A DNA stretch of 64,000 nucleotides from Ferrimonas lipolytica (GTDB taxonomy: Bacteria; Pseudomonadota; Gammaproteobacteria; Enterobacterales; Shewanellaceae), in NCBI RefSeq assembly GCF_012295575.1, contig NZ_CP051180.1:3286001-3350000 (forward strand), in the 5' to 3' direction. Under the pieces are notes generated by a model that ran no database searches, was not told where the DNA came from, and saw nothing but the letters and a program-made list of their open reading frames with translations. Below, one piece after another: positions 12,057 through 58,701 of the stretch; within the stretch, counting starts at the first letter, position 1, and each line of letters opens with the position of its first letter. Made by a program: the position numbers and the translations under genes.

Positions 12057-12168
12057 TCCCTAGAGGATCTGTAGCGCTTTCCAGCTCAACTTAGAGTAAT
12101 AACTTCAAACTGAAGCGAGTTTCAATCACCGCCAAATAAGAGTAAATACTCTAATTTAGGCTTTAAAG

Positions 12169-12395
12169 GGCTGTGTCGTAATTAGCTGTTGAAGTTTATC
12201 TTAAGCCTTCGGCTTCACCGATTGCGGTGCTTTTAGGGGGGGCGCGGTGGCGACGGCACATTCTTGGATGCATTAGGGGGGAGCTTCGCCCCCTTTGCCC
12301 CCCTTGCCTTAGGTCGCAGTCCAAAGCGGTAGAAGATCAACGACGGTAGTGCTTTACCAGTATTGGAAAGATCAACACTTAATTGGTACACAGCC
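12169..12395 (+). mobile_element. MITE-like element, copy 1
   Basis: A 227-bp non-coding element with terminal inverted repeats: left GGCTGTGTCGTAATTAGCTG, right (reverse strand) GGCTGTGTACCAATTAAGTG. It is flanked by an exact 8-bp direct repeat CTTTAAAG (12161-12168 and 12396-12403), a target-site duplication. The interior has a C/G-run hairpin (around GGGGGGAGCTTCGCCCCC) and the stretch GGCGACGGCACATTCTTG shared with the other three copies. It carries no transposase, so it would need one supplied from elsewhere. It lies between fadL and leuD. Confidence 0.9.
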
Positions 12396-12510
12396 CTTTA
12401 AAGCGGATATTAATCGCTATAAGGCGCTAAAAGTGACCGAATGCAGCGGAATTAACGAATGGCGATACGAATTAAAAGCAGATTAAAAGCCACACAATTA
12501 GGCAGAAAAA

Positions 12511-44000: not shown

Positions 44001-44905
44001 CCTCCAAGCGACGCGGTAAGAATGTGTGCAGCTACTACTGCGGCTTAGAAAGCCAACAGCTGCACCAGCAGTTCAATCTATCCAGTGAGATATTTCACGC
44101 CATCGACCAACAACAGATTCAGGTCTATTACCAAGCCAAGGTGTGTTGCAATACCGGCAAGGTTGTCGGTGCTGAAGCGCTCGCCCGTTGGGTCCACCCA
44201 CAAAAAGGGATGATCTCACCGGTAGAATTTATTCCTGTAGCAGAGGCCAATGGCGCCATCATTCAAATTGGCCAATGTGTACTCACTCGCGCTTGTCAGC
44301 AAGCCTTACTTTGGCATCAAAATGGCCTATTTGATGGCCGAATCGCCGTCAATGTTTCCGCTAAGGAGTTACATCAAGACAACTTCGTGGCCTCGGTACA
44401 ACAGGTATTGCAACAAACCGGCTTGCCAGCGCCAATGTTAGAATTAGAGCTAACAGAAACCCTATTGGTTGAGAATATCGGGGAGGCCCGAACTACGCTG
44501 ACCCAATTGCGTGCTCTTGGCATCGGTATTTCACTCGATGATTTCGGTACTGGTTACTCATCACTCAACTATCTCGATGAATTGCCGTTAGACACGTTAA
44601 AAATCGACCGCAGCTTTATCAAGAAAATCACCCCTGAAAATGACAACAACTTGATCTTGGCCGGGGTGCTGGATATCGCCAAACGGCTGCAGCTCAGTGT
44701 GGTTGCCGAGGGCGTTGAAACCGAATTACAGTGGCACTACCTGCAACGCCACCACTGCCAACAAGCGCAAGGCTTCCTGTTTAACAAGCCACAGAGTGCG
44801 GCCGATTTTATCGATTATCTGCGTAGTGAACAGGCAGCCAGCAGCCACTATCGCAACAACCAGTCGCCAACTAACGTTCAACCGCTGCAACCAGCGCTGC
44901 CGTGA
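41003..44905 (+). CDS. Reg_prop/Y_Y_Y periplasmic sensor with GGDEF and EAL domains (paralogue B)
   Basis: 1300 residues, the same architecture as the gene at 36656. A signal/membrane segment (LLTLTLLCFAVVAHA) is followed by propeller repeats (GFIWIGTDNGISRYDGHHF, GNIWVGTEYGLNRI, GLIWVATSNGISQF), Y_Y_Y (FQFSALDYTSPQKNRYRYRL), a TM helix (AWTLTVLIVLLIIFGSILIWG), GGDEF (930-934, with RPSD before it) and EAL (1058-1060, DDFGTGYSS, AEGVET). All catalytic motifs are intact. The two proteins are alike over their whole length, so a tandem duplication is the simplest history; the DUF2956 gene lies between. Sensory parts differ most, which suggests different ligands. Confidence 0.92.
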   Translation: MPAVFMTTTELVRHQAVLPNDQPLCRNAQRDSGDISNHRLLCIITRLLTLTLLCFAVVAHATDYRFTALQTGDGLQSNLTQNTYQQRNGFIWIGTDNGISRYDGHHFKHYNYNPKSPQHISNNMITDISEDTLGNIWVGTEYGLNRINADDTVTIYGTDDTAPDGLNSAWILALFTDSKEQLWIGGDAGLSRYEHHTNSFIPYPLIINNEAVQDGDFGFFKIAQTSSGDLFVASSEGLLQIDQNKQSLTKLTAANSNQQPIIADHINIVTATQDGRLLVNTDRFGTHWYDPNTHQLTPISLEHAGTITAITQMDNGDIWFAHVGGIRILDHHGNHLSDVHFDEFSDTSIASDSITHIAQDDSGLIWVATSNGISQFSYLRSPSRLHRHSETGQGIIANSISYVAQVAEQEVWLSSPNGLTKISQPQQFSNFQSSDALRNLDIWSMAASDDGTLWYAASNGLGTIDRSTGEQQHYSNQPGNEHGLEHVDIYTVLPDQQGGAWITGYYNTGLVYFHPEHGLGKRYMDGEHRYTKMGNFSFDTVWGQDGAIWMATTDSIYRVDPNNGEAINFPLDGDRPFMRATDIAVHPTGDIWATSQGAGLIRLSHQPGESSGQHYQLLHISQQLGLENNSFKALTIDPIDPNLVWFISDNELYRYHIKTQQLVSYPSLFEINNLSLINGAMTQLDHLIYIGSNVGLLEIDTRKLQTNRFDAPVHVTGVKVNGKAVSVKSSSPADPIRFDYEDNTIEFQFSALDYTSPQKNRYRYRLIGADQDWIEADNRTSVTYTNLRSDYYQFVVQGSNSDGHWSNIEGNWHFTVRWAWWAWTLTVLIVLLIIFGSILIWGRSKRLSFLNNIAFTDPLTGLANRRKLNDWLGKLCTGKDNAFRVIFIDLDDFKHINDTFGHDIGDEYITSVAKRINLSLRPSDKLARLGGDEFALIIEGKLSFNQSDALMDRLLRVINSEHHLGNHLLKGSASVGVAVYPHDGQDSNTLLKNADTAMYASKRRGKNVCSYYCGLESQQLHQQFNLSSEIFHAIDQQQIQVYYQAKVCCNTGKVVGAEALARWVHPQKGMISPVEFIPVAEANGAIIQIGQCVLTRACQQALLWHQNGLFDGRIAVNVSAKELHQDNFVASVQQVLQQTGLPAPMLELELTETLLVENIGEARTTLTQLRALGIGISLDDFGTGYSSLNYLDELPLDTLKIDRSFIKKITPENDNNLILAGVLDIAKRLQLSVVAEGVETELQWHYLQRHHCQQAQGFLFNKPQSAADFIDYLRSEQAASSHYRNNQSPTNVQPLQPALP

Positions 44906-45725: not shown

Positions 45726-47900
45726 ATGTCAGATACCTCCACCTCGCCACTTTTGGCCAAGCTTAACGACAAACAGCGCGCGGCCGTTGAAGCCGCACCG
45801 GGGGCGTTGCTGGTGTTAGCTGGTGCCGGCTCAGGCAAAACTCGGGTACTGACCCATCGCATCTCGTGGCTGCTACAAGAGCAGGGAGAAAGCCCTTACG
45901 CCATCTTAGCGGTAACCTTTACCAATAAAGCAGCCAAAGAGATGCGTCAACGTATCGAAGAGCTATCCAATGCACCGATGGGACGGATGTGGATCGGCAC
46001 CTTCCACGGCCTTGCTCACCGCTTATTACGCGCTCACCACAAAGAAGCCAAGCTACCTGAAGGCTTCCAGATCCTTGATAGTGACGATCAACAACGGCTA
46101 CTGAAGCGGATCATCCGCAGCCTAGAGCTGGATGAAAAGAAATGGCCACCACGTCAGGCGATGGGTTACATCAACGCCAAAAAAGATGAAGGCCTACGGC
46201 CACAACACATTGATGCCAGCTTTCATCCGGTGGAGCGCACCTGGTTAAAGATCTACGTTGCTTACCAAGAAGCCTGTGACCGAGCTGGTTTAGTCGACTT
46301 TGCCGAGTTGCTATTGCGCGCCCACGAATTATGGCTTAACCACCCTGCGCTGCTGCGCCACTACCAAAACCGTTTCCGCCATATTCTGGTGGACGAGTTC
46401 CAGGATACCAACACCATCCAATACGCGTGGATCCGTATGTTGGCGGGTAACCAAAACAACGTAATGATTGTTGGCGACGACGATCAATCTATCTATGGCT
46501 GGCGTGGCGCCAAGGTGGAGAACCTAGCGCAGTTTTTGAAGGACTTCCCTGGTGCAGAAACGGTCCGCTTGGAGCAAAATTACCGCTCTACCGGCACCAT
46601 ATTGAAAGCCGCCAACGCCCTGATCGACAAGAACAGCGATCGCATGGGCAAGGAGCTGTGGACCGACGATGTTGATGGCGACACCATCAGCCTCTATACC
46701 GCCTTCAACGAACTGGAAGAGGCGCGCTACATCGTTGGCCAGATCCGTAAGTATCAAGATGAAGGCGGAAACCTGTCTGACTGCGCCATCCTATACCGTT
46801 CCAATGCCCAATCGCGGGTTATGGAAGAAGCGTTGCTGCACCGTAGTGTGCCGTACCGGATCTACGGTGGCTTGCGTTTCTTCGAGCGCCAAGAGATCAA
46901 AGACTCCCTCGGCTACCTGCGTTTGATGACCAACCGTGATGACGACGCCGCTTTCGAGCGGGTTATCAATACCCCGACCCGAGGGATCGGCACTCGAACC
47001 ATCGACATCATCCGCTCCACTGCCCGCAGCGAAGGGGTTACCTTGTGGCAATCATGTCAGCGACTATTGGCTGACAGCGGCTTGGCCGGTCGTGCCGCCA
47101 GCGCGGTCCGTAACTTTATGGAGCTGATCAGCACACTGGAAGCGGAAACGGAACAGGCCAACCTGAAAAACACCGCCGATCACGTTATTCAGCATTCCGG
47201 TTTACTGGCAATGTACCAAGCGGAAAAGGGCGAAAAGGCGGAAGCACGCGTAGAAAACTTAAAGGAATTGGTTACCGCCGCAGGTTCATTTATCAAGCCC
47301 GATGACGCCGAAGAGATGGACGATCTTAACGCTTTCTTAGCCAACGCCGCGCTGGAAGCCGGTGAACGCCAAGCCGGTGAGTCGGAAGATGCGGTACAGA
47401 TGATGACCCTGCACACCGCTAAAGGTTTGGAGTTCCCGCAGGTGTTTATCTGCGGCGTTGAAGAAGGATTGTTCCCATCGCAGATGGCACTTGATGAGGG
47501 CAACCGCCTCGAAGAGGAGCGTCGCCTTTGTTACGTCGGCATGACCCGAGCAATGAAAAAGCTCACTCTAACCCACGCGGAGTCACGACGGATCTATGGC
47601 CGTGAGACCCTAGCTCGGGTAAGCCGCTTTGTCGGTGAGATCCCTGCGCAATACCTCGATGAGGTTCGCCTCACTACTCAGGTTTCACAGCCGCAGCAAA
47701 AGGGACGCTTTAACCAGTCGGAACAGCGCTTTAATGAAACCGGCTTCACCTTAGGACAACGGGTACATCACCCTAAGTTTGGCGATGGCGTTATCCTTAA
47801 CTTCGAAGGCTCAGGGCCACAGGCTCGGGTACAAGTTGCCTTTGATGGCCAAGGAGTGAAGTGGTTAGTGGTCGCTTATGCTCGGTTGGAGCCGAGATAG
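45726..47900 (+). CDS. uvrD: DNA helicase II UvrD
   Basis: 724 residues from ATG 45726, matching the 720 of E. coli; the longer frame from 45618 overlaps yigB and is rejected. It opens LLAKLNDKQRAAVEAAPG and has Walker A LAGAGSGKTRVL, motif Ia TFTNKAAKEMRQRI, motif II ILVDEFQDTNTIQY, motif IV/V TLHTAKGLEFPQVFICGVEEG and motif VI EEERRLCYVGMTRA. It unwinds DNA 3'-5' in mismatch and nucleotide-excision repair. The conserved C-terminal Tudor-like segment GQRVHHPKFGDGVIL is present. Confidence 0.97.
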   Translation: MSDTSTSPLLAKLNDKQRAAVEAAPGALLVLAGAGSGKTRVLTHRISWLLQEQGESPYAILAVTFTNKAAKEMRQRIEELSNAPMGRMWIGTFHGLAHRLLRAHHKEAKLPEGFQILDSDDQQRLLKRIIRSLELDEKKWPPRQAMGYINAKKDEGLRPQHIDASFHPVERTWLKIYVAYQEACDRAGLVDFAELLLRAHELWLNHPALLRHYQNRFRHILVDEFQDTNTIQYAWIRMLAGNQNNVMIVGDDDQSIYGWRGAKVENLAQFLKDFPGAETVRLEQNYRSTGTILKAANALIDKNSDRMGKELWTDDVDGDTISLYTAFNELEEARYIVGQIRKYQDEGGNLSDCAILYRSNAQSRVMEEALLHRSVPYRIYGGLRFFERQEIKDSLGYLRLMTNRDDDAAFERVINTPTRGIGTRTIDIIRSTARSEGVTLWQSCQRLLADSGLAGRAASAVRNFMELISTLEAETEQANLKNTADHVIQHSGLLAMYQAEKGEKAEARVENLKELVTAAGSFIKPDDAEEMDDLNAFLANAALEAGERQAGESEDAVQMMTLHTAKGLEFPQVFICGVEEGLFPSQMALDEGNRLEEERRLCYVGMTRAMKKLTLTHAESRRIYGRETLARVSRFVGEIPAQYLDEVRLTTQVSQPQQKGRFNQSEQRFNETGFTLGQRVHHPKFGDGVILNFEGSGPQARVQVAFDGQGVKWLVVAYARLEPR

Positions 47901-47928
47901 TCAATCCCCCCCTTCCTCCATATAAAAG

Positions 47929-48139
47929 GGCTGTGTACCAATTAAGTGTTGTTCTTTTCAATGCTGTTAAAGCACTGGCTAGGCTCGTCCTAAGGCAAAG
48001 GGGGATTCCAAAGGGGGCGGAGCTCCCCCTAATGCATACAAGAATGTGCCGTCGCCACCGCGACATAGCCCCGTTCAAACGCCACAATCAGTAGAGCCCA
48101 AGGCTTGATATAAACCCAACACTTAACTGTGACACAGCC
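47929..48139 (-). mobile_element. MITE-like element, copy 2
   Basis: 211 bp, reverse orientation relative to copy 1: left GGCTGTGTACCAATTAAGTG, right end GACACAGCC. Flanks TATAAAAG (47921-47928) and TACAAAAA (48140-48147) agree at 6 of 8 positions, an eroded target duplication. The right flank is inside the A-tract (T-tract on the minus strand) of the fieF terminator. It carries the CATACAAGAATGTGCCGTCG stretch typical of the family. Confidence 0.88.
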
Positions 48140-48142
48140 TAC

Positions 48143-48172
48143 AAAAATCCCGAGCTTGTGCTCGGGATTTTT
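48143..48172 (-). terminator. terminator of fieF
   Basis: A perfect 13-bp stem AAAAATCCCGAGC / GCTCGGGATTTTT with loop TTGT. T-tract on the minus strand is 48143-48147; it would also work on the + strand. MITE copy 2 abuts it. Confidence 0.92.
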
Positions 48173-48179
48173 ATGGTAA

Positions 48180-49067
48180 CTACGCTTCAACCGTATGCGG
48201 GTCTTGGTGCACTATCACGTCGGCACCAGGAAACTGGGATTGTATGCGGTCTTCCACCGCATGGGCGATGTCATGAGCCTTGAGCAGCGATAGATTACTG
48301 TCGAGATCGATGTGCATCTGCACAAACAAGGTGTTGCCAGCCATGCGAGTACGGAAGTCGTGTAACCCCAGCACATTATCATCGGCCAGTATCAGCGCTT
48401 GCACCTGTTGCTGAACCTCAGCATCCGCTTCACGGTCGAGCAACAAATTGACCGCTTCTTTACCCAAACCCCAGGCACCGAAACCGATATAAAAGGCGAT
48501 GCCGACGGCCGCGGCGCCATCAACCCACCAGAAGCCATACGCTGCCATAATTAACGCGATGATTACCGCCACATTCATTAACAGATCAGAACGGTAATGC
48601 AGGGCATCAGCCGCAATAGCGGTAGAGCCGGTTGCAGCAACCGCTTTCTTTTGAATAGTTAACAGCGCCAATGTGGCGACGATGGCAAATATCGACACGC
48701 CTACGCCCCAACCGGTAGCACTTGGTGGCACCGGTGAGATAAGTCGCTCAGTCCCAGCAAACAATAGCAGCAGTGCTGAGCCCAAAATAAAGCCGGCCTG
48801 TACCAGCGTCGCTAATGGTTCCGCCTTGCCATGCCCCCAACGATGGTGATCATCCGCCGGACGCAGCGCCACTCGTAAGGCATAGAAGTTGATCAATGAC
48901 GCCGCAGCGTCCATCAATGAGTCGGTTAACGATCCTAATAGGCTGGCTGAGCCAGACATTAACCACGCCATTAGCTTGGTGATGATCAACAAAGTGGCCA
49001 CCGCGATGGAAGCGCGAGTGGCCAGCTTTATCCAAGATTCATATTGTTCGGGGGTTGCGCGCGCCAT
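48180..49067 (-). CDS. fieF: cation diffusion facilitator FieF (YiiP)
   Basis: 295 residues, six membrane helices and a C-terminal cytoplasmic domain. Site A residues Asp49, Asp53 (SLTDSLMDAA), His157 and Asp161 (HYRSDLLMN) match the Zn2+/Fe2+ antiporter YiiP of E. coli. The C-terminal HDFRTRMAGNTLFVQMHIDLDSNLSL is the CDF metal-sensing domain. The order fieF-cpxP-cpxRA is like that in E. coli. Confidence 0.95.
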   Translation of the reverse strand: MARATPEQYESWIKLATRASIAVATLLIITKLMAWLMSGSASLLGSLTDSLMDAAASLINFYALRVALRPADDHHRWGHGKAEPLATLVQAGFILGSALLLLFAGTERLISPVPPSATGWGVGVSIFAIVATLALLTIQKKAVAATGSTAIAADALHYRSDLLMNVAVIIALIMAAYGFWWVDGAAAVGIAFYIGFGAWGLGKEAVNLLLDREADAEVQQQVQALILADDNVLGLHDFRTRMAGNTLFVQMHIDLDSNLSLLKAHDIAHAVEDRIQSQFPGADVIVHQDPHTVEA

Positions 49068-49122
49068 CGAAATACCTGTTATAAGCAGAGCCTAAGCGGC
49101 TGATGATGCGCGCAGTTTAGCA

Positions 49123-49608
49123 TTACTTGCGAGATTGACGACGCTCCATTCGCTCTTGTTGCTTCGCAGCCAACTCATCGCGTTGTTCTTGAGTTAGGAT
49201 CTGCATCAACTCGTAGTGGGTTTTCATCTGTTGCAGCTCGCGTTCAGTTTGACGCTGCTGACGTTCAGCGATGATCGCTTTAGCGGCGGTTTCATCGAAG
49301 CTGTCTGCATTCATTAGCTCCTGCATCGCGGCGCGCTTAGCTTCACGTTTTGCTTGGCGTTCTTCGGCGCTTGGGCGCTCATCTTTAGGCTGCTTGGCCG
49401 CTTTCAATAGGGCTTTAACCTGATCGCGCTGCTCGTCGGTTAGATCCAAGTTGAACAACATCTTATGGATGTTACCGTGGCCGCCACGTTTCTCTGCGTG
49501 GTGACGATCACCTTGAGGGCCAGAACGCTCACCATGGTGGTCTGCAAACGCAGTCGCCGACGTGATCATAACTAATGCTGCCAAACCCATTTTAGTGGAA
49601 CGTTTCAT
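49123..49608 (-). CDS. cpxP: CpxP-like periplasmic LTxxQ protein
   Basis: 161 residues from ATG 49608, with GAGGAG 7-8 nt upstream; the frame from 49734 adds 42 unlikely residues. A signal peptide (MKRSTKMGLAALVMITSATAFA), a His/Gly-rich N-terminus (DHHGERSGPQGDRHH, possibly metal-binding), then long helices with two LTxxQ motifs (LTDEQRDQV and LTQEQRDEL), the mark of CpxP/Spy. CpxP inhibits CpxA and acts as a chaperone adaptor. Divergent from cpxR, with a CpxR box between. Confidence 0.9.
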   Translation of the reverse strand: MKRSTKMGLAALVMITSATAFADHHGERSGPQGDRHHAEKRGGHGNIHKMLFNLDLTDEQRDQVKALLKAAKQPKDERPSAEERQAKREAKRAAMQELMNADSFDETAAKAIIAERQQRQTERELQQMKTHYELMQILTQEQRDELAAKQQERMERRQSRK

Positions 49609-49678
49609 AGTAGAACTCCTCATATTCAGTAGATGTAGCAACGATACCAGCCGCAATGTAAGCTTGGGTGATAACAGC

Positions 49679-49693
49679 GTAAAGCTGTGTAAA
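49679..49693 (-). promoter_or_regulatory. CpxR box between cpxP and cpxR
   Basis: GTAAA-GCTGT-GTAAA: two perfect half sites in tandem with 5-nt spacing, the CpxR consensus. It is in the divergent promoter region, 71 bp from the cpxP ATG and 65 bp from the cpxR ATG, suited to autoregulation and induction of cpxP. Confidence 0.85.
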
Positions 49694-49757
49694 GCTAGCC
49701 TTGTGTTGATAATTATTGCGGTTAATCTATGCACTCCAAACGAGCAGGTGGTAACAG

Positions 49758-50447
49758 ATGAATCGAGTATTATTAGTTGAAGATGATCAAGGCTTAAGCG
49801 AGCTTTTATCGCAGTTATTACAACTAGAAGGATTTGAGGTGTGTATTCGCCAAGATGGGCCTTCTGGGCTTTTGGCTGCGCGCGAAGGTAAGCACGACAT
49901 ATTACTACTCGATGTAATGTTGCCGGGCATGAATGGCTTTGATCTGCTGAAAACCCTGCGGGAACATGGCAGCAAATTACCGGTACTGATGCTCACGGCC
50001 CAAGGGGACGACATGGCCCGAGTAACCGGATTAGAGCTAGGGGCCGATGACTACCTACCTAAGCCCTTCAACGACCGTGAACTGCTCGCACGGATCCGCG
50101 CTATCTTGCGGCGCAGTCAAGACAATGCCGAAACACCAGCCCAGATTGAACAAATCAACCACATCGACATTACATTGCTACCGCGCCGACAAGAGGTTCG
50201 AGTTAGCGGTGAATTAGTCGAGCTTACCAGCACCGAATACGCCCTGTTATCGTCATTAATTACCCACAGCGGCGAAGTCGCAAGCAAAGAGATGCTATCC
50301 CAAGAAGTACTGGGTAAACGCTTGATGCCGTTTGACCGCAGCCTTGATATGCACCTATCTAATCTCCGCAAAAAATTGCCAGGGCGCGCCGATGGTTCAG
50401 CACGAGTAAAAACCGTACGTGGTAAAGGCTACATATGGTTGGACTAA
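49758..50447 (+). CDS. cpxR: response regulator CpxR
   Basis: 229 residues. Receiver with phospho-acceptor Asp52 (LLDVMLPGM), acidic pair ED near the N-terminus and Lys in KPFNDREL, then an OmpR-type winged helix (LTSTEYALLSSLITHSGEV, ending VKTVRGKGYIW). Responds to envelope stress with CpxA. Overlaps cpxA by 13 bp. Confidence 0.96.
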   Translation: MNRVLLVEDDQGLSELLSQLLQLEGFEVCIRQDGPSGLLAAREGKHDILLLDVMLPGMNGFDLLKTLREHGSKLPVLMLTAQGDDMARVTGLELGADDYLPKPFNDRELLARIRAILRRSQDNAETPAQIEQINHIDITLLPRRQEVRVSGELVELTSTEYALLSSLITHSGEVASKEMLSQEVLGKRLMPFDRSLDMHLSNLRKKLPGRADGSARVKTVRGKGYIWLD

Positions 50448-51853
50448 CAAATAAGTTTAGCCAACTGCTACCGAAACTATTACTGGCATTTTGGATCACT
50501 TCTACTCTCACCATTGGGGTAGTCATCGGTTTGCCACTGCTGCAAGAAAAGTGGGACAACGAGCCATTGGCGCCCCACTTTGCCAACCTGCTCCAGCGAG
50601 TGGCGATGCGGATGGACAGCAATCCAGAACTCACTATCAATCAAGTTAATAAACTGCTGCGTCGCACCGGTAACTTGGAGCACGAACAACCGCGCCGTCA
50701 TGACAAGCAAGACGACAAAAATCGCCCTGAGATACCTCAGGTTCAACTCTATTTAATCGATACTGATGGCTCTCCTTCCGAAGAAAATCGCCGCAGGATC
50801 CCCCGCTCAGTACGTCAGTTTTTACTCGACTTTGAGCAAAATGGTCCGATGCACCAACGCCAATTTGGCAACAGTTTAGTGTTTGGGCCGAAGCGGTTAG
50901 CTGACGGTAGTAGCTTGGTTGGTCGCTTAGACCAACACAATAAACCGTGGTTGTTTGAGCTATTACAACGACCTTGGTTATTACTGATCTTAGCCACCAT
51001 TGTCTCAACCATCGTCTTTGGTCTTTTGGCGTGGAACCTCAGCAATCCACTGCGGCAGTTACGTCAGGCCACCACTGCGGTTGCCCGAGGAGAACTTGAC
51101 GCCCGGATCGATGGCCGCATCAGCAAGCGCAGCGATGAGATTGGCCAGCTCGGCCGCAGTTTTAACCTAATGGCAGACTCGGTCAGTACCATGGTCACCA
51201 GCCAGCAGCGGCTATTGTCGGACATCTCCCACGAGTTAAGAACTCCGCTCACCCGATTAAAATTAAGTTTGGCTATCGCCCAGCGCAAAGGCCAACAGAG
51301 TGACGAATTGACCCGCATTGGGACCGAAGCGGATCAACTCGAAGCGATGTTGCATGAGTTGCTGGCGCTGTCGAGACTAAACCTACAAGCGACCGATCGC
51401 AAAATCGACATCGATCTAATTTCGATATTACAGCCAGTGATTGATGGAGCCCAGTTTGAAGCGCAAGAGCTCAACAAGATGGTGGTGGTAACGCAGCCTC
51501 AATCGCTGCCCTATTACGGCGTCGACACCCTGTTGCAGCGGATGCTAGAAAATCCACTGCGCAATGCACTGCACTACGCTAACCATAAGGTTCAGGTGAC
51601 GCTGCGGAAGTCGCTGACTGGGGTAGAGATCGATATTGTCGACGACGGTAACGGGGTACCAGAGCATGAGCTGGAATCGATTTTTCGACCATTTCATCGG
51701 GTTGATGATGCCCGCGACCGCAGCAGTGGCGGTTGGGGCCTGGGACTGGCAATCAGCTTTGGGGCGGCCGAAGCGCATCAAGGCACCATCAGCGCCCATA
51801 ACCAACAAGGCGCAGGCTTACGGGTAACAATCAAGCTACCACTACTGCAGTAA
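50435..51853 (+). CDS. cpxA: sensor kinase CpxA
   Basis: 472 residues. Two membrane helices (LLLAFWITSTLTIGVVIGLPLL; LLLILATIVSTIVFGLLAW) bracket a ~130-residue periplasmic sensor. HAMP follows (NPLRQLRQATTAVARGELDARI), then HisKA with phospho-acceptor His266 (DISHELRTPLTRLKL) and HATPase (DDGNGVPEHELESIFRPF, GWGLGLAIS). The start sits within the end of cpxR, so translation is coupled. Confidence 0.96.
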   Translation: MVGLTNKFSQLLPKLLLAFWITSTLTIGVVIGLPLLQEKWDNEPLAPHFANLLQRVAMRMDSNPELTINQVNKLLRRTGNLEHEQPRRHDKQDDKNRPEIPQVQLYLIDTDGSPSEENRRRIPRSVRQFLLDFEQNGPMHQRQFGNSLVFGPKRLADGSSLVGRLDQHNKPWLFELLQRPWLLLILATIVSTIVFGLLAWNLSNPLRQLRQATTAVARGELDARIDGRISKRSDEIGQLGRSFNLMADSVSTMVTSQQRLLSDISHELRTPLTRLKLSLAIAQRKGQQSDELTRIGTEADQLEAMLHELLALSRLNLQATDRKIDIDLISILQPVIDGAQFEAQELNKMVVVTQPQSLPYYGVDTLLQRMLENPLRNALHYANHKVQVTLRKSLTGVEIDIVDDGNGVPEHELESIFRPFHRVDDARDRSSGGWGLGLAISFGAAEAHQGTISAHNQQGAGLRVTIKLPLLQ

Positions 51854-51872
51854 TTGAACGCGGCTGCCTGAT

Positions 51873-52028
51873 TTAGCGGCCGCTCAATCCCCCTAAGGTA
51901 ACCCACAGCAGCACACCGCCAGCAAAGAAGGAAAAAAAGGCACCTAAGGGAAAATCTGGCAATAACATGATCCCCATACCGCATGTCAGCACCATGACGC
52001 TGCCACTAATCACTTGTGCTCGATACAT
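51873..52028 (-). CDS. 51-residue two-helix membrane protein
   Basis: An ORF of 51 codons starting MYRAQVISGSVMVL and containing two hydrophobic segments: VMVLTCGMGIMLLP and GAFFSFFAGGVLLWVTLGG. GAGAGG is placed well before the ATG. It lies between the cpxA stop (20 bp away, convergent) and the divergent Omp85-like gene. The Leu/Gly-rich, tightly bracketed pattern is that of real small membrane proteins, but I know no family. Overlapping longer frames on the minus strand do not show protein-like composition. Confidence 0.6.
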   Translation of the reverse strand: MYRAQVISGSVMVLTCGMGIMLLPDFPLGAFFSFFAGGVLLWVTLGGLSGR

Positions 52029-52228
52029 ATTTCGCCTCTCTGCTTAGCTAATCAAACGTGAACTCAATGTGTGCCGGCGGTATTACCAAACAGTTTGTGG
52101 CCATTGCCACAGTAAGCTGTATGAAACTTTACCAAACCACCACCTTAACTACTTACTTTGCAATATTTACGCCATAATCCACCGAATATCCAAAGCTTCG
52201 CCACCACACGCCCCATCAGGACGTCTCT

Positions 52229-53539
52229 ATGCGCTATTTATCTGTCATTCTTGTTTCTTTGCTCCTTTGTGGTGCAGCGAATGCACTACCTCGAGCCAAT
52301 GCCAAATATTCAGTCAAACGACTCGAAAACCCGAACCCCGGCGTCGAACAGCTAGTTCTGCCCTACTTTTTTAGTCCTGACAGCATGGGCTTTAACGTTG
52401 GTGTGGGAGCAATCCGCAAAGGTTTGTTGCAAGATCAGATGAGCATTGGTGGCACCGTTTACGGCGGTGATGACAGCTACGGTGCCTTGGCCGGCGTATG
52501 GAACTACCGCTTACCAACAACCGAGCGATGGTTTGCCAGCTTTATCGGTTTTGTCGGCGACTTCCCAAATCAGCGAGCTTACGGCGGCGCCTCACTTGTG
52601 CCTATCGCAAATGACCACGCGCTGCCTGGCAGCCACAACTCTAGCCCCAATGATTACATTGAGGGCCAAGGGGCATCCAACTTCTGGGATGTAAAGTTAG
52701 AGTACGCTCTGCCAATTGGTGCTACCCGTGATGACGCATTACTTCGTTATGAGGTTCGCAATGGTTTGTTGGTGTCTGAACCCACTGGCGGCAAAGTCTG
52801 GAACCCATTAGAGAGCGGCGCTACGGTTGCAATATTGCGTCAGTTTAACCGCTACCAAGACTTCAATTTAGACTCAGGTAACCTCGAGGGTACCGTGCAC
52901 GGGTTAGAACTGGGTTTGTTGTACGACAACACCGATTTCACTCTGAACCCAAGCTTTGGTAGCCGCCAATACCTGTCTGTCTCTCACGATAACGGCTGGC
53001 TCGACTCTGAAGAGCAATGGACCTTCCTTAACTTTGAAGCCAGTAAATTCTTCTCGCTGGGCGAATCGGCTACCGCTCACCAGCGCGTCGTGGCGTTAAA
53101 CTTCTGGACTGGCTACACCCCGAGCTGGGAGGTTGAGGAAGATGCCGCCAGCAATTCCCGCAAGGTTGTCGGTGGTGCACCATATAACGAAGGGGCACGC
53201 TTAGGAGGCTTCTTCCGCATGCGTGGTTACGATAACAATCGCTTCCACGATAAGGCGTCGATCTACACCACCGCCGAATATCGCCATACCCTCAAGTATA
53301 ACCCCGCTGACCACGTGGCCTGGTTCCGTAAGATCCGCATGGATTGGGTTCAATTGGTTGGTTTTGTAGAGGCTGGACGAGTGGGTGAGGCTTACACTTC
53401 GGATGAACTATTGCAGGATCTGCACGTCGATTACGGCATGTCCGTGCGGACGATGCTAGCAGGCATGGTAGTGCGTTTCGATCTGGCCAAGTCAGACGAA
53501 ACCACCAACTTCTGGGTTATGGCCAAACACCCGTTCTAA
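52229..53539 (+). CDS. Omp85/BamA-type outer-membrane barrel protein
   Basis: 436 residues with a signal peptide (MRYLSVILVSLLLCGAANA). No POTRA domains: the barrel follows directly. Near the C-terminal end, GGFFRMRGYDNNRF contains the RGY motif that distinguishes the Omp85 lid loop L6, and strands such as SIYTTAEYRHTLKY follow. The C-terminus, FWVMAKHPF, ends in Phe, the BAM recognition signal. Such short POTRA-less Omp85 barrels are of uncertain function (possibly lipid or protein export). TGTGGC-CATT-GCCACA (52096-52111) is a symmetric sequence upstream that may bind a regulator. Confidence 0.8.
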   Translation: MRYLSVILVSLLLCGAANALPRANAKYSVKRLENPNPGVEQLVLPYFFSPDSMGFNVGVGAIRKGLLQDQMSIGGTVYGGDDSYGALAGVWNYRLPTTERWFASFIGFVGDFPNQRAYGGASLVPIANDHALPGSHNSSPNDYIEGQGASNFWDVKLEYALPIGATRDDALLRYEVRNGLLVSEPTGGKVWNPLESGATVAILRQFNRYQDFNLDSGNLEGTVHGLELGLLYDNTDFTLNPSFGSRQYLSVSHDNGWLDSEEQWTFLNFEASKFFSLGESATAHQRVVALNFWTGYTPSWEVEEDAASNSRKVVGGAPYNEGARLGGFFRMRGYDNNRFHDKASIYTTAEYRHTLKYNPADHVAWFRKIRMDWVQLVGFVEAGRVGEAYTSDELLQDLHVDYGMSVRTMLAGMVVRFDLAKSDETTNFWVMAKHPF

Positions 53540-53552
53540 TCCGCTGTGCCAA

Positions 53553-53580
53553 ACGCTCTCGCCATCGGTGGCGGGAGCGT
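53553..53580. terminator. hairpin between convergent Omp85-like and glutathione synthetase genes
   Basis: ACGCTCTCGCC / GGCGGGAGCGT stem (one G.T pair), loop ATCGGT. The + side has no T-tract and the - side only TTT, so termination is possible but weak. Confidence 0.45.
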
Positions 53581-53592
53581 AACAAGTCATCG

Positions 53593-55053
53593 CTACACTA
53601 GCACTAACGAATCCAACACCCCGCGCCCACTGTGAATACCACCTTCATTCTCTGATGCCGGTTTACTGCGGATCAAATAACCCGCATAGCCACCATGATC
53701 GGTTATCGCTTCACCACGAAAATGCAGCGTGAATAAGCCAATTTCACTAATGAGGTTTTCCACCACTGCCGGTTGATTGTCTCGTACGGTTAACGCCGGG
53801 CGTTCCCGTTCGTGGGGGTAAAGGCGGCGCATCAAGGCCCAGGCATCATATTCCGACTCATTCAACGAGGCCAATTTGGTAAAGATATCGTCACCAAATA
53901 CCGCATGACCACCGCCTTCACCTTGGTTCTTTAATACCCATTCATCAGCGTTGCCGTGTTCTGCTAGCCAAGCAATGTTGGCTGGCGTTATCGGCTTCAT
54001 CTGTGCCAATACCGCTTTTATCTGCTTCGCTTCGGTTTCAGTTATTCCCCAGCGAGCCATCTCAGTAGCTGACATTGCGGTAACCAACATTTGCATGGTT
54101 TTGCTGGTCGCCAATTGCTGGCTAACGGTCGCGTTCAGTGCCACCTTATGCTGCTCGATAAACACTCGAGTTTGACTGAGAGTATGACAACAGCGAGTCT
54201 CGCTGCGATGCTCTAGGTAGTAATCGATATACTGATAACCAGCACGTAAGTAGACCACATCAACCCCACCAACGCCGTCAAGCAGCAAGCGCTGATTCGG
54301 GCCACTGGAAAGCTGATCAGCCAGTTGAGCAAAGGTACGGCGTATGGTTCGCACCCCATGTTGCTGCAACGCCACCGCTAACAAATGTTGATCGTAGACG
54401 TTATCCTCTTGCTCCTGCACCACCATCACAAACACCGGTTGGCCATGATCCAAGGCGTCGTTACGCACCTTACGAGCTGTGGTCGCGATACCGCGAGCCA
54501 TCTGTTCTAACCCGTGATTTTCAGCCAAGCGCGCCTGCGGTTGGTCCCCCCACTGCTGGTAAGCCTCGGGCCATTGATCTTGGATATACTTGTGCAACTG
54601 ATGCGCCAACTGGCCAAATGGCCCCATGCCGGCGGCAATCCCATTAAACTCGATCACCTGAGCGCCATGGCTGCGATCATCCATATAATCGGTGCGCATG
54701 ATCAGTAATGGTTGCCGCGGTGCCACTTTACCGTCGTGGATCTGGCGATGCAGCTCCAACAGACGCGCAAAAAATGGGTCGGCTTTGCCCATGCTGTTTA
54801 AGCTCTGTTGCAGATAGTGATGATCCTCTGATAGCGCATGGATAAGTTTGCCCAGTAATGGCGTCGTCCGCTGCAGCCGTTCAAAGGTGGCGCGAGGGAA
54901 GCTGACCGGAGCGAGACTATAAGGGCAGTGACGAGCACTACCGTCGCGATTTTTTATCCCGACCCCATGCATCAACGCCCACTCGCTGGCGTCATCGATC
55001 AACTGTTGCTCAATTGCAAGACTGCTAGCTTGGGTAGTAGATATGATGGTCAT
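53593..55053 (-). CDS. glutathione synthetase of the eukaryotic type
   Basis: 486 residues, the size of animal/yeast GSS (~474-491), not bacterial GshB (~315). Landmarks in order: WALMHGVGIKNRDG, CPYSLAPVSFPRATFERLQ, RTDYMDD, QVIEFNGIAAGMGPFG, RAGYQYIDY, TKTMQ-like TSKTMQMLV, WVLKNQGEGGGHAVFGDD (the GSS G-loop, EGGG), VENLISEIGLFTLHF, and the Ala-rich-loop segment GYLIRSKPASENEGGIHSGRGVLD. It ligates gamma-Glu-Cys and Gly with ATP in the cytoplasm. This family is uncommon in bacteria and suggests gene transfer. Two hairpins lie in the leader. Whether gshB is also present in the genome cannot be seen. Confidence 0.9.
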   Translation of the reverse strand: MTIISTTQASSLAIEQQLIDDASEWALMHGVGIKNRDGSARHCPYSLAPVSFPRATFERLQRTTPLLGKLIHALSEDHHYLQQSLNSMGKADPFFARLLELHRQIHDGKVAPRQPLLIMRTDYMDDRSHGAQVIEFNGIAAGMGPFGQLAHQLHKYIQDQWPEAYQQWGDQPQARLAENHGLEQMARGIATTARKVRNDALDHGQPVFVMVVQEQEDNVYDQHLLAVALQQHGVRTIRRTFAQLADQLSSGPNQRLLLDGVGGVDVVYLRAGYQYIDYYLEHRSETRCCHTLSQTRVFIEQHKVALNATVSQQLATSKTMQMLVTAMSATEMARWGITETEAKQIKAVLAQMKPITPANIAWLAEHGNADEWVLKNQGEGGGHAVFGDDIFTKLASLNESEYDAWALMRRLYPHERERPALTVRDNQPAVVENLISEIGLFTLHFRGEAITDHGGYAGYLIRSKPASENEGGIHSGRGVLDSLVLV

Positions 55054-55070
55054 GTGTACGACTCCGGTAG

Positions 55071-55125
55071 CCCACCTATAGGGTGGGTAATAATGGTTCG
55101 ATAAATTGGCTTACTCAGCCAATTT
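55071..55125 (-). promoter_or_regulatory. two hairpins in the leader of the glutathione synthetase gene
   Basis: CCCACC-TATAG-GGTGGG (55071-55087) and AAATTGGCT-TACTC-AGCCAATTT (55103-55125, a perfect 9-bp stem) lie 18 and 50 bp upstream of the start. They may be operators or RNA structures; neither is followed by a T-tract. Confidence 0.45.
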
Positions 55126-55285
55126 CACTCAGCTGTACTGATAAGACGCAGCCAAGCAGAAAAAGACGCAAATGAATTCACACCGATGCGTTTAAGATGG
55201 TGCAAGCCCGCAAAAGTACAACAATTGTTCGAGCCGTAGGCTTAAACGAGACCTCGCTAGCTACCCACGTAGCAATCACAAAAAA

Positions 55286-55562
55286 GGCTGTGTACCAACT
55301 AAGTGTTGTTCTTGCCAATGCTGTTAAAGCACCGGCTAGGCGAGTGTTGATACAAAGGGAAAGCACTACCGCCGTTGAGTTTCTGCCGCATTGGAGCAGT
55401 CTAGCGAAGCGTTTAGGGCAGCGACCTAATGCAAGGGGGCGGAGCTCCCCCCTAATGCATACAAGAATGTGCCGTCGCCACGCGACATCGTCCCCTAAAA
55501 GCACCGAAGTCGGTAGAACCGAAGGATTAAGATAAACTTCAACAGCTAATTACGACACAGCA
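55286..55562 (-). mobile_element. MITE-like element, copy 3
   Basis: 277 bp. Same ends and orientation as copy 2: left GGCTGTGTACCAACTAAGTG, right end reading TTACGACACAGC. It has an extra ~60 bp near the left end that copies 1 and 2 lack, shared with copy 4 (GCAGTCTAGCGAAGCG-like sequence). The left flank is ACAAAAAA and the right flank is the A-run of the sseA terminator, so the target was A/T-rich and the duplication is blurred. Confidence 0.86.
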
Positions 55563-55594
55563 AAAAAAACGCCCATCGACAATACCGATGGGCG
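55562..55594 (-). terminator. terminator of trmL-sseA
   Basis: CGCCCATCG / CGATGGGCG stem (55570-55594), loop ACAATAC, with eight T's on the minus strand (55562-55569). MITE copy 3 begins in this T-run. Confidence 0.92.
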
Positions 55595-55620
55595 CTTAGT
55601 TTGGTGTGGCTAGGTCGAAC

Positions 55621-56475
55621 TTAGTCGATAACCTTGACGGTATCAGCTGCGCTGCCCCACTCACTCCAGCTGCCATCGTAGACGGCCCAATTTTGCACCC
55701 CAATCTCCGCGGCTGCCAAGGCGACAATGCAGGCGGTAACGCCAGAACCACAGCTGTAGATGTGACGGCTGTTACCATCGATTCCTGCATCCACAAACTG
55801 TTGGTGCAATATAAATGGCGGCACCAACTTGCCTGACTCAATCAAGCTGGCGTAGTGCAGATTAATCGCGCCCGGCATATGGCCAGACGCAACCTGTGGG
55901 TTTGGATCGGCCTCAACACCACTAAAACGCGCCTTGCCACGGGAATCGACAATCACTCGTCCGGCAGCATTAAGCGATAACTGTACTTCGCGCTTGTCCG
56001 CCACTCGTTGTGGCTGATATTTAGCGATGAACAGGCCGGGTTTAACTGCCGGTGCATTGCCGGCCGCCAGTTCACCGTCGATGGCAAGCCATGCCGGTAA
56101 GCCGCCATTTAGCACCGCCACCTTGTCATGTCCCATCGCTTTAAACATCCACCACACCCGTGCGGCAGTGAATAAACCATGGCTGTCGTATACAACAATA
56201 ATGCTGTCGTTATTGATACCAAATTGACGCACTGCCTGCTCAAACTTAGCGGCATCAGGCAGCATATGAGGTAACTCAGAATCCGCAGCAATCTCGTTAT
56301 CGAAATCGAAAAAATGCGCTTGAGCAATATGCTGTTCCACGTACTCAGTAAGACCATCACGGCCACTGCCCTGCATATGCCAGCTAGCATCGAGCAATAC
56401 CAGTTGTGGGTTGTGTAAACGTTCCGATAACCACTTGGCGGTCACCACATTGGTTTTTAGTTTTAAAGCGCTCAT
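55621..56475 (-). CDS. sseA: 3-mercaptopyruvate sulfurtransferase SseA
   Basis: 284 residues, tandem rhodanese domains. The active-site loop CGSGVTA (Cys242) is that of mercaptopyruvate sulfurtransferases rather than thiosulfate-specific rhodaneses. N-terminal domain: VTAKWLSERLHNPQLVLLDASW, PAARVWWMF-like AARVWWMFKAMGH; C-terminal domain: VIVDSRGKARFSG. It moves sulfur to thiols or cyanide in the cytoplasm. It follows trmL with a 28-bp gap; the pair is one transcription unit. Confidence 0.93.
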   Translation of the reverse strand: MSALKLKTNVVTAKWLSERLHNPQLVLLDASWHMQGSGRDGLTEYVEQHIAQAHFFDFDNEIAADSELPHMLPDAAKFEQAVRQFGINNDSIIVVYDSHGLFTAARVWWMFKAMGHDKVAVLNGGLPAWLAIDGELAAGNAPAVKPGLFIAKYQPQRVADKREVQLSLNAAGRVIVDSRGKARFSGVEADPNPQVASGHMPGAINLHYASLIESGKLVPPFILHQQFVDAGIDGNSRHIYSCGSGVTACIVALAAAEIGVQNWAVYDGSWSEWGSAADTVKVID

Positions 56476-56503
56476 GAGCGGCTCCTTGTCTCAGCAAAAG
56501 CGG

Positions 56504-56968
56504 TTACAACGCACCATCAAAACCAAGCTGACGCCAGGTTTCATAGGCACAGATAGATACCGCATTGGCCAAATTCAAGCTGCGCGCCTCTGGTTTCATC
56601 GGAATACGAATACGACAATCCGGTTCAAACACACTACGCACCTCATCTGGCAAGCCACGGGTTTCGGGGCCAAACAGCAGCACATCGTCTTGCAGATAAG
56701 TCGGCTCAGTATGAGGGCGGCTACCTTTGGTGGTTAAGGCGAAGATCCGTTTGCCCGTCATCGCTTCTAAAAAAGCATCGTAGCTTGGGTGAATAGTCAC
56801 ATTAGCTAGGTCGCGGTAATCCAATGAAGCGCGACGTAGGCTCTTCTCATCCATGCTGAACCCTAACGGCTCAATCAGGTGCAGATCAGCGCCGCAATTA
56901 GCAGCTAGACGAATGATGGCGCCGGTATTTTGCGGCATCACAGGTTCATACAAAGCGATGTGAAACAT
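56504..56968 (-). CDS. trmL: tRNA (cytidine/uridine-34-2'-O)-methyltransferase TrmL
   Basis: 154 residues, a minimal SPOUT methyltransferase with its trefoil knot: [11 protein letters not shown] and [24 protein letters not shown]. TrmL methylates the wobble ribose of tRNA-Leu CmAA/UmAA isoacceptors. N-terminus [26 protein letters not shown] is the usual one. First gene of trmL-sseA. Confidence 0.95.
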
Positions 56969-57089
56969 GATGATAAGGCTCTACGAAATCAGGAATGTGG
57001 CTATTGTACCTCAGCCTTTGATCGGAGTTTTGCCCCGATTCCAGCGCATTTGATAAACTAGTCTTAATTCCGAATAAAAAGGTCACCCT

Positions 57090-57617
57090 ATGTCACTGCA
57101 AGACCAACTGATGAAGGCCGGTTTGGTGTCGAAACACGACGCTAAGAAAGCCAATAAATCCAAGCACCGCGCCCTAAAATCAGGCAAAAAGGTGATCAAC
57201 GAAGCCAAGCAAACCGCGGTTGAAAAACGCGAAGAACAAGCCAAGCGCGATCGCGAGCTAAACGCCCAGCGTAAGGCAGAAGCAGATAAAAAGGCGCTCA
57301 TTGCCCAGATCAAACAACTGATCAGCACTAATAGCCAAGATCGCAGCCGTGGCGAGATCGCTTACAACTTCTCAGACAAAGGCACCATTACTAAGGTGTT
57401 CGTTACTGAAGCTCTGCAAAATGGTTTGGTTAATGGCCAGTTAGCAATCGCTAAACTGGAAGACAGCTACCACCTCATCCCAACCGGCATCGCCGATAAG
57501 GTGAAGCAGCGCGACGACAGCTACATTGTGCTAGTAAACGACCGCAAAGCTGACACCAGCGTCGATGAAGAAGATCCGTACGCGGACTTCCAGATCCCAG
57601 ATGATCTAATGTGGTAA
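57090..57617 (+). CDS. DUF2058 family nucleoid-like protein
   Basis: 175 residues. It begins MSLQDQLMKAGLVSKHDAKKANKSK, followed by a strongly basic helical segment (EKREEQAKRDRELNAQRKAEAD), then an acidic C-terminus ending DEEDPYADFQIPDDLMW. This is the YaiL/DUF2058 pattern widely found in gammaproteobacteria (annotated as a nucleoprotein or polynucleotide-associated enzyme). The role is unknown; the charge pattern suggests nucleic-acid binding. It has its own terminator. Confidence 0.9.
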   Translation: MSLQDQLMKAGLVSKHDAKKANKSKHRALKSGKKVINEAKQTAVEKREEQAKRDRELNAQRKAEADKKALIAQIKQLISTNSQDRSRGEIAYNFSDKGTITKVFVTEALQNGLVNGQLAIAKLEDSYHLIPTGIADKVKQRDDSYIVLVNDRKADTSVDEEDPYADFQIPDDLMW

Positions 57618-57628
57618 GCCCCCTAACT

Positions 57629-57657
57629 AAAAAACCGGCCGCCAAGCCGGTTTTTTT
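57629..57657 (+). terminator. terminator of the DUF2058 gene
   Basis: AAACCGGC / GCCGGTTT stem (57632-57653) with a 6-nt loop and then TTTT. MITE copy 4 begins immediately after its T-run. Confidence 0.9.
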
Positions 57658-57658
57658 A

Positions 57659-57951
57659 GGCTGTGTCGCCGTTAAGTGTTGAGGTTTATATCAACTCTTC
57701 GGCTCTACCGATTGCAGTACTCTTAAGGGATTATGTCGCGGTGGCGACAGCACATTCTTATATGCATTAGGGGCGAGCTTCGCCGCCCTTTAGAGTCCCC
57801 CTTTGCCTTAGGTCGCAGCCCAAAACGCTTCGCTGGGCTGTTCCAATGCGGCAGAAGAGCAACGGCGGTAGTGCTTTTCCCTTATATCAGAACTCGCCTA
57901 GCCGATGCTTTAACAACATTGGAAAGAACAGCACTTAGTTGGTACACAACT
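57659..57951 (+). mobile_element. MITE-like element, copy 4
   Basis: 293 bp, the longest copy, same orientation as copy 1. Left end GGCTGTGTCGCCGTTAAGTG, right end GTTGGTACACAAC (last bases decayed). Both flanks are T-runs: TTTTTTTA before and TTTTTT after, fitting a blurred 8-bp target duplication. It contains the family core CATTCTTATATGCATTAGG and the GCCTTAGGTCGCAGCCCAAA stretch also found in copy 1. Confidence 0.86.
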
Positions 57952-57966
57952 TTTTTGTCCATGCAA

Positions 57967-58326
57967 TTACTGCGCTCCGCGCAACAACAGTGGGCTAGCA
58001 GCTACCGCAATAGGTTGTGGCACAAACTCGAATCTCAACTTGCCATCAAAATACAAACTGGCGCTGATGGTAACGCTATCGGCCTGAGCGTAATCAACCT
58101 GATATGGGAACGGCGGTCCGCCCTGTACCTCTTGCTGTTGCTCACCGAGCAGATTGCCATCGGCATCAGACACTTGAACCGTGAGCTGTGAGCCCGGTGG
58201 CGTTAAGATCCGCTCGCGATAAACCACTTCGCCGCTCACTTGCTGATCCTTTATTGGTGCGGGTTGATCGTTACCGCAACCAACCATTACCAGTGTCAAC
58301 GCTACTGCTGTGACTATTCGATGCAT
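57967..58326 (-). CDS. YbaY-family lipoprotein
   Basis: 119 residues from ATG 58326 (GGAG 6 nt upstream; the 58338 alternative lies 12 bp further up). A signal peptide ends at the lipobox MVGC, followed by a linker and a YscW/YbaY-like beta domain: VSGEVVYRERILTPPGSQLTVQVSDADGN, then PYQVDYAQADSVTISASLYFDGKLRF. YbaY in E. coli is an outer-membrane lipoprotein of unknown function. Its 3' end runs up to MITE copy 4. Confidence 0.82.
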   Translation of the reverse strand: MHRIVTAVALTLVMVGCGNDQPAPIKDQQVSGEVVYRERILTPPGSQLTVQVSDADGNLLGEQQQEVQGGPPFPYQVDYAQADSVTISASLYFDGKLRFEFVPQPIAVAASPLLLRGAQ

Positions 58327-58701
58327 CCTGATCTCCATGCTATTTAAGCTTGAAACTAAGCGACTACCTCGCTAGCTGTTACAGCGAATCATACGCGATA
58401 GCATGCACTACACCCACCTATTGCCGTGCAGTGCTGCGTAGCCCTGTCACAACCAGTAGCTTGTCCGCATAACCATTGAACTACAACCTCCATGCCAAAC
58501 TGTAAATGGCTCATTTTATTGCCACAGCCATCGACCTAAATGCCGCCATTGGGATTTACATCCGCTGGCCGTTCAAGGCAGAGCGCCGGCGTTGGGTACG
58601 GCACCAATACACACCAACCAAAACCCTGATCGGAGTCAATGTTTATCGACAAATACCGGCCTACAGTTGATGAGTCGGGACAGCTCACCAAGGAGGTTTC
58701 T
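58327..58701. other. intergenic region upstream of the EF-G-like gene
   Basis: 375 bp between the divergent ybaY-like and EF-G-like genes. A frame 58639-58701 precedes the EF-G-like ATG but has no conserved residues; I treat it as leader. No strong promoter, hairpin or ORF stands out. Confidence 0.45.

Follow-up and report, generated by a model that had tools for sequence, protein, structure and literature searches.

The closest described relatives of the repeats considered here are insertion sequences of the IS1595 family (NF033547; PF12762), which have in common with the present elements an IS1595-type transposase with a zinc-ribbon match, inverted repeats starting with GG, an 8-bp target duplication and a length of ~1.02 kb. 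The difference lies in the targeting of terminators, which is absent from the available portions of the IS1595 descriptions and was seen for only 1/8 distant elements with callable ends; a literature search, largely restricted to papers free of subscription, found no account of it in the accessible text. A short non-autonomous IS1595 derivative is known from Haloquadratum walsbyi, where the MITE in the ISHwa6 row is given as 165 bp with 25-bp repeats, an 8-bp duplication and 7 copies (PMC3852290), compared with 266 right-end matches here, and terminators are unmentioned in the accessible part of that paper. Group IIC introns are mobile elements described, in the text available, as inserting 3' of intrinsic terminator motifs (PMC4424553). 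They are retroelements with a ribozyme, whereas the present elements have the inverted repeats and target duplications of DNA transposons and occur in both orientations, and no Rfam family of any kind, group II intron RNA structures included, was found at the gathering score in the whole window (the 64,000-nucleotide stretch of Ferrimonas lipolytica DNA that was analysed). Some IS elements use extragenic REP palindromes as target (PMC1525189); as far as the accessible text goes their target is a repeated sequence, whereas here it is the T-tract next to a terminator hairpin, whatever the sequence of that hairpin.

The MITE and its copies in the window

The four repeats in the window are copies of one ~290-bp MITE, being short, bounded by inverted repeats, present in many copies and flanked by a target duplication. 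Its ends are GGCTGTGT...ACACAGCC, the duplication is 8 bp and A/T-rich, and the right end has 266 matches in the 4.13-Mb genome. Over 648 kb the matches listed yielded 150 paired copies, of which most measured 200-300 bp and none more than a few hundred bp. Mechanically called ORFs of at least 80 aa overlap copies 2, 3 and 4.

Copy 1 (12169-12395, + strand) is internally deleted to 227 bp and lies within a perfect 8-bp duplication, CTTTAAAG, at 12161-12168 and 12396-12403. No terminator was predicted at its insertion site, in line with the initial annotation, which had set it apart as the exception. That annotation had also placed copies 2-4 against the hairpin-plus-T-tract terminators of the fieF, sseA and DUF2058 genes, and all three were recovered as predicted terminators. 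Copy 2 (47929-48139, - strand, left end at 48139) is internally deleted to 211 bp, and its duplication, 6/8 alike, consists of 48140-48147 (TTTTTGTA on the - strand) and 47921-47928 (CTTTTATA on the - strand). Its target was the T-tract (48147-48140) of a terminator predicted on the - strand at 48140-48167 (hairpin 48148-48167; -16.7 kcal/mol), on the side of a cation-efflux gene (Pfam name; fieF; 48180-49067, - strand). Copy 3 (55286-55562, - strand, 277 bp, left end at 55562) similarly occupies the T-tract (55569-55563) of a predicted - strand terminator at 55563-55594 (hairpin 55570-55594; -18.3) beside a gene with the Pfam name rhodanese (sseA-like; 55621-56475). Copy 4 (57659-57951, + strand, left end at 57659), near full length at 293 bp, adjoins a + strand terminator predicted at 57635-57658 (hairpin 57635-57650, T-tract 57651-57658; -11.5) that follows a DUF2058 gene (Pfam name; 57090-57617, + strand). 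A second terminator scan of 47000-58500 gave 17 sites against a shuffle mean of 12.9. The sseA-side and DUF2058-side terminators were among these 17 but the fieF-side terminator, in which an A-tract further upstream pairs with the T-tract, was absent.

Target sites across the genome

The copies analysed were taken from the first positions among the right-end and other end matches listed. Removal of 8 that were spurious or too near the end of a stretch reduced the 150 paired copies to 142, and removal of a further seven in three clusters left 135 stand-alone copies, on which the final counts were made. Masked or edge positions reduced some counts to 138, 136 or 131 copies, and the clustered copies are still included in the comparison with 119,254 background positions and in the matched-composition, GC-flank, octamer-offset, age, occupied/unoccupied hairpin and co-directional tests. 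Gene calls were made with a simple script based on ORFs and codon usage, and all terminators are computational predictions. Among the matches listed the two duplicated octamers were at least 6/8 alike in 102/135 stand-alone copies and identical in 44/135; shuffled pairs of the 142 copies gave about 15 at 6/8 or better.

The association with terminators extended beyond the window and was far above the random expectation against which it was checked. The duplicated octamer lay on a predicted terminator T-tract in 66/135 stand-alone copies among the matches listed, compared with 4,033/119,254 intergenic positions (3.4%), and a terminator was present at 66/131 insertion sites but at only 34/1,060 nearby shifted positions. 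A terminator was defined as occupied where the octamer began no more than 4 bases from its first T (n=60), and in 53/60 the distance was at most one base. These observations support a preference of the MITE for terminator T-tracts that is set at the nucleotide level. It is a preference only, since the remaining 69/135 copies, again among the matches listed, were away from predicted terminators.

The initial annotation had further proposed that transcription leaving a terminator always meets the left end of the element, on the strength of three of three copies at terminators in the window. Three of three would share an orientation with P = 0.25. Among the 66 copies at terminators in the matches listed the left end faced the terminator in 35 and the right end in 31, the corresponding ratio for another MITE in a congener was 9:7, and in full-length IS copies the transposase-start end and the other end faced the terminator in a ratio of 4:3. 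A fixed orientation is refuted by these counts and has virtually no probability left to it; the orientation shared by copies 2-4 is due to chance.

Insertions that survive have already been filtered by selection. With end mismatches as a proxy for age, the proportions at terminators were 27/46, 20/44, 13/27 and 11/25 for 0, 1, 2 and at least 3 mismatches, a trend that is at most weak, and with duplication identity as the proxy (15/37, 39/60 and 17/45) there was no trend.

Probable parent and related elements in the host, its congeners and distant genomes

The MITE is probably moved by an IS1595-family transposase. The same genome contains a decayed parent IS at G000:C1:3637558-3638586, where matching ends enclose a remnant that scores 28.4 bits on PF12762 (cut-off 27). 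The parent IS of this genome is broken. A congener encodes an intact transposase of 315 aa; with NF033547, the NCBIfam model for IS1595, it scored 185 bits (cut-off 75), and with PF12762 it scored 42.9 bits (cut-off 27). In genome G012 the transposase frame was split in 2/5 IS copies. The parent IS has an IS1595/ISXO2-type transposase, an 8-bp target duplication and inverted repeats shared with the MITE. Both termini of either element carry these repeats as GGCTGTGT, then TTA or TA..TGTTG, with ~23 bp shared as GGCTGTGT, then TTA..TGTTG. ISL3 parentage was also considered and rejected, PF01610 having no match anywhere in the genome.

Two congeners provided full-length IS copies in which both ends could be called. 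All 9 were on T/A tracts with a duplication identical in 8/8 bases, the target was C-T6-G or its complement in 7/9, and a hairpin lay directly before the target in 7/7 testable copies. Another MITE, in a congener, had 16/18 paired copies at terminators. Judged from these sequences, the T-tract preference is common to the full-length congener IS and this second MITE. Single ends found in other congeners with a loose pattern had a terminator at -8 or better in 3/16 distinct rows; a single end reveals one side only, and part of these rows may have matched by chance.

A search of 274 genomes for distant IS1595 elements matched 37, from which 30 loci were taken. A strict end-finder called ends in 1/30. 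A more permissive one, applied to the 24 loci of sufficient length, called them in 8, and 1/8 of these elements was at a terminator. Ends were called in 2 of 7 further relatives from named genomes, with octamers AAGATATT and TTTTAATA, neither on a T-tract. A general terminator rule for IS1595 elements was therefore not seen in this sample of distant elements with callable ends.

Mechanism of target choice

Very probably the MITEs are IS1595 derivatives that have inserted in either orientation, with an 8-bp duplication, into terminator T-tracts, which are copied in the process. The family ends, the duplication, the targeting of predicted terminators, the balanced orientation and the same targeting by the full-length IS are all apparent from sequence. 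In the proposed scheme the repeats would be non-autonomous derivatives of an IS1595-family IS of the host genus, in agreement with the probable Ferrimonas origin suggested by the nearest named transposases. The transposase of this IS, acting in trans, would work on the ~23 bp that the ends have in common and insert the elements by an 8-bp staggered cut. The favoured target would be an A/T octamer bounded by G/C and directly 3' of a GC-rich hairpin, that is the T-tract of an intrinsic terminator, and for the full-length IS mostly C-T6-G, with insertion possible either way round. Mobilisation in trans by the parent transposase is suggested by the shared ends and target, and the targeting may well be performed by the transposase itself. 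The 8-bp duplication would copy the T-tract and leave the hairpin with one, and the upstream gene should retain its terminator; occupied predicted terminators would presumably stay functional. A near-neutral effect on host gene expression fits such a scheme, since duplication leaves a T-tract at either side of the element, and insertions would be nearly harmless and tolerated in hundreds of copies because the terminator is kept and the location is beyond the end of the gene.

Selection clearly acts, as almost all copies lie outside predicted genes (5/142 were inside, each within 64 bp of the gene end), and it could be argued that any A/T octamer bounded by G/C is hit and that copies at terminators merely survive as harmless. 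Mixed A/T octamers bounded by G/C do indeed serve as targets, and among 63 of these adjacent hairpins were not clearly enriched (observed against expected 19 and 15.7 at -8, 28 and 24.8 at -6, 13 and 9.2 at -10). Selection as the sole explanation is nonetheless improbable, given that the T-tract itself is targeted and not its harmless surroundings, as the shifted positions demonstrate, and that in congeners whose copies are few and look recent, with ends that are mostly identical, the proportions are higher (16/18 and 7/7 testable). Also against it, in convergent regions T-tracts with a GC-rich flank were occupied in 25/163 cases with a hairpin and in 0/45 without; with a GC-poor flank the corresponding values, 2/189 and 2/56, are too small to separate. 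Irrespective of gene arrangement, insertion had occurred at 60/436 of the T/A-rich octamers that had both a GC-rich flank and a predicted terminator and at 4/390 of those that had the flank only, so that for GC-flanked T-tracts the insertion rate was about 13x higher with a hairpin. The mixed A/T sites rule out the hairpin as an absolute requirement; it is a strong preference. The initial suggestion that the transposase reads the hairpin or its T-tract is half supported, the preference for both being limited by the mixed octamers and by the half or so of copies off terminators. The hairpin could be perceived either from the DNA, as a dyad or a GC/AT junction, or by way of the terminating transcription complex.

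A reading that competes more strongly, though it falls short of an even chance, is that only DNA sequence and shape matter, the signal being a rigid run of T with G/C at either border and the dyad incidental. The target consensus is nearly symmetric, with an A/T core and G/C on both sides, a hairpin is dispensable for half of the copies, C-T6-G recurs in the full-length IS and occupied tracts contain more T (6.70/8 compared with 6.35/8 in unoccupied terminators). Matching on T count and flank GC, however, left 69/136 copies at terminators against 37.7 expected, and with T count and the GC of a 6-nt flank held equal 61/70 had a hairpin against 39.3 expected, although such matching is coarse and part of the excess might disappear if GC were required over a longer stretch. 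Rather unlikely is a coupling to transcription termination through, e.g., a paused polymerase, a melted T-tract or a nascent RNA hairpin. Between co-directional genes 29/32 occupied terminators were in the gene sense (the 29 including one tandem array counted three times) compared with 42/62 unoccupied (Fisher P = 0.02), but antisense predictions may hold more false terminators and many targets lack any hairpin. An RNA hairpin can accommodate G-U pairs, whereas a DNA dyad cannot. Such pairs occurred in 18/60 occupied and 77/162 unoccupied hairpins (P = 0.02), which leans towards DNA, but among strong hairpins at matched stability in 14/47 and 38/94 (P = 0.27), and with this loss of the difference G-U pairing was discarded as a discriminator of RNA and DNA recognition. 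It is equally unlikely that this IS1595 lineage chooses its targets by sensing the terminating transcription complex or the hairpin, as a DDE transposon that would home to gene ends and regenerate the terminator via its 8-bp duplication.

In bacterial genomes terminators are plentiful, and as insertion sites they are both generic and safe. If the preferred scheme of IS1595 derivatives inserting into T-tracts is true, a terminator-preferring transposase that restores the T-tract would explain how hundreds of MITE copies accumulate without wrecking the host. It would also provide a simple route by which DNA could be placed at the ends of genes, and a system for testing a possible coupling of transposition to transcription termination. 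A further difference between the terminators was that bulged hairpins made up 10/60 of the occupied and 76/162 of the unoccupied predictions, and false predictions in the unoccupied set may be all that lies behind it.

The element and its target site

A single element of at most about 290 bp accounts for all four repeats in the window (3286001-3350000 of a chromosome of 4,133,133 bases), and its inverted ends are imperfect, the left one reading GGCTGTGTC.... and the right one ....GGTACACAGCC. With up to two mismatches allowed the right-end pattern gave 266 matches in the genome and its reversed control none; the left-end pattern gave 455, right ends among them. The DNA sampled, 648,022 bases comprising the stretches around the matches listed, the window and the search loci, contained 150 paired copies, which were reduced to 142 when eight were dropped and to 135 stand-alone copies when three clusters were removed. 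At one locus (L057, G000:C1:909391-910298) three MITE copies lie head to tail with outer flanks TTTTTGTT and one AAATAAAA octamer at each junction between them, which looks like a tandem multimer, not three separate insertions.

An 8-bp target duplication with at least six of eight bases alike was found in 102 of the 135 stand-alone copies and was identical throughout in 44, while random re-pairing of flanks gave an expectation of ~15/142 at the same level of at least six. The target consensus is six A/T bases with a looser base on either side and then a G/C boundary on both sides. An IS1595-type MITE with 8-bp repeats is already recorded (PMC3852290); a search of a review of prokaryotic MITEs for the term IS1595 found it absent (PMC10969869).

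Terminators as targets

The empty site was rebuilt by joining the flanks of each copy, and a terminator was called where the octamer lay on a T-tract immediately following a hairpin at least as stable as -8 kcal/mol. The association with terminators proposed in the initial annotation lies well above random expectation among the sampled copies, with 66/135 stand-alone copies at a predicted terminator (73/135 when either copy of the duplication was allowed) against 4,033 of 119,254 intergenic positions (3.4%). Compared with positions shifted 75-150 bp away the figures were 66/131 and 34/1,060. In the 60 occupied terminators, defined by an octamer starting at most four bases from the first T, the start was within one base in 53, and 63/70 terminators at insertion sites pointed out of the adjacent gene. 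The accompanying suggestion that transcription leaving the terminator always meets the left end was not borne out, since 35 terminators faced the left end of a stand-alone copy and 31 the right, and three of three copies in the window would share an orientation by chance one time in four.

For octamers rich in T or A that have a GC-rich flank, use was 60/436 positions at a predicted terminator and 4/390 without a hairpin, a ratio of ~13; mixed A/T octamers with such a flank and no terminator were used at the same rate as the latter (14/1,370). Octamer positions overlap and the P values tabulated from these counts are thus approximate. Matching for composition shrinks the hairpin excess, which nonetheless persists: 69/136 observed against 37.7 expected after matching for T count and flank composition, and 61/70 against 39.3 for T/A-rich octamers after matching the 6-nt flank. 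For mixed octamers enrichment of neighbouring hairpins was not clear (19/63 against 15.7). A hairpin increases the use of a T-tract and insertion elsewhere is possible without one.

The transposase would insert with an 8-bp stagger at an A/T octamer, terminator T-tracts being its preferred targets. Since duplication and T-tract are equally long, it follows from the sequences that the hairpin would keep a T-tract on its side after insertion, and termination would presumably be retained. Selection acting alone on the survival of insertions is an unlikely account of the pattern: the insertions sit on the T-tract itself, T-tracts with a GC-rich flank in convergent regions were used at 25/163 positions with a hairpin and 0/45 without, and recent-looking copies in congeners show a higher terminator rate. 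If the transposase does choose terminators, it may read the DNA or it may read termination itself. Reading of termination would fit the finding that between co-directional genes 29/32 occupied terminators are in sense orientation against 42/62 unoccupied predictions (P = 0.02), but antisense predictions are perhaps of lower quality and one array enters the 29 three times.

Insertion after terminators is described for group IIC introns (PMC4424553) and REP palindromes are targets of some IS elements (PMC1525189). A survey found IS1595 over-represented between co-directional genes, its available part not naming terminators as the target (PMC9208149), and the literature searched yielded no description of an IS1595 element targeting terminators.

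The transposase and related elements

The probable mover is an IS1595-family transposase. A remnant of a PF12762 (IS1595) transposase, interrupted by several stops, lies at chromosome positions 3637558-3638586, and the ends on either side of it match those of the MITE in type. An IS1595 element shortened to 439 bp by internal deletion (L106, G000:C1:3351056-3351494) retains both ends and is perhaps an intermediate between IS and MITE. With a 90-residue piece as query the nearest named transposases are those of Ferrimonas (82% identity over 87 residues), and 5/14 of the loci matched belong to that genus; the intact transposase among these relatives falls in the IS1595 family (NCBIfam, 185 bits against a cut-off of 75; also Pfam).

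The transposase was found in 4/13 congeners. Copies of the full-length IS (1,022-1,023 bp) for which both ends could be called number five in one congener (G012) and four in another (G005), with an unbroken transposase frame in 3/5 and 4/4 respectively. All nine have 8/8 duplications on T/A tracts, and in seven the target is CTTTTTTG or its complement. A hairpin immediately precedes 5/5 copies in G012 and both testable copies in G005, the other two there being cut by contig ends; among these seven it lies on the side of the transposase start in four and on the opposite side in three. The right-end pattern is present in 2/14 genomes of the genus, the source genome counted; the second (G013) carries another MITE with ends of this kind, with 16/18 paired copies at predicted terminators, nine facing the left end and seven the right. 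Two 427-bp elements with related ends in a further congener (G008; L261 and L277) each lie at a predicted terminator, in opposite orientations. Single ends found with a loose pattern in other congeners had a terminator on the visible side in 3/16 distinct rows, some of them possibly chance matches.

Outside the genus the picture is sparse: 30 loci were taken from 274 genomes, of which 24 were long enough, eight had ends that could be called and one was at a terminator. An element of ~3 kb with an IS1595 domain in a distant genome (L218) has differing ends (CGGAAGTATGTACTTG) and a perfect TTTTTTTT duplication immediately after a strong hairpin, a hint that terminator targeting may have arisen convergently or be older.

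Other genes in the window

Window positions 53593-55053 on the minus strand encode a 486-aa protein with matches to PF03917 and PF03199, models of the eukaryotic type of glutathione synthase, which is unusual in a bacterium. Two adjacent open frames of ~1,290 aa (36656-40522 and 41003-44905) are likely paralogues, given DNA identity of 72-79% across two stretches near their 3' ends.
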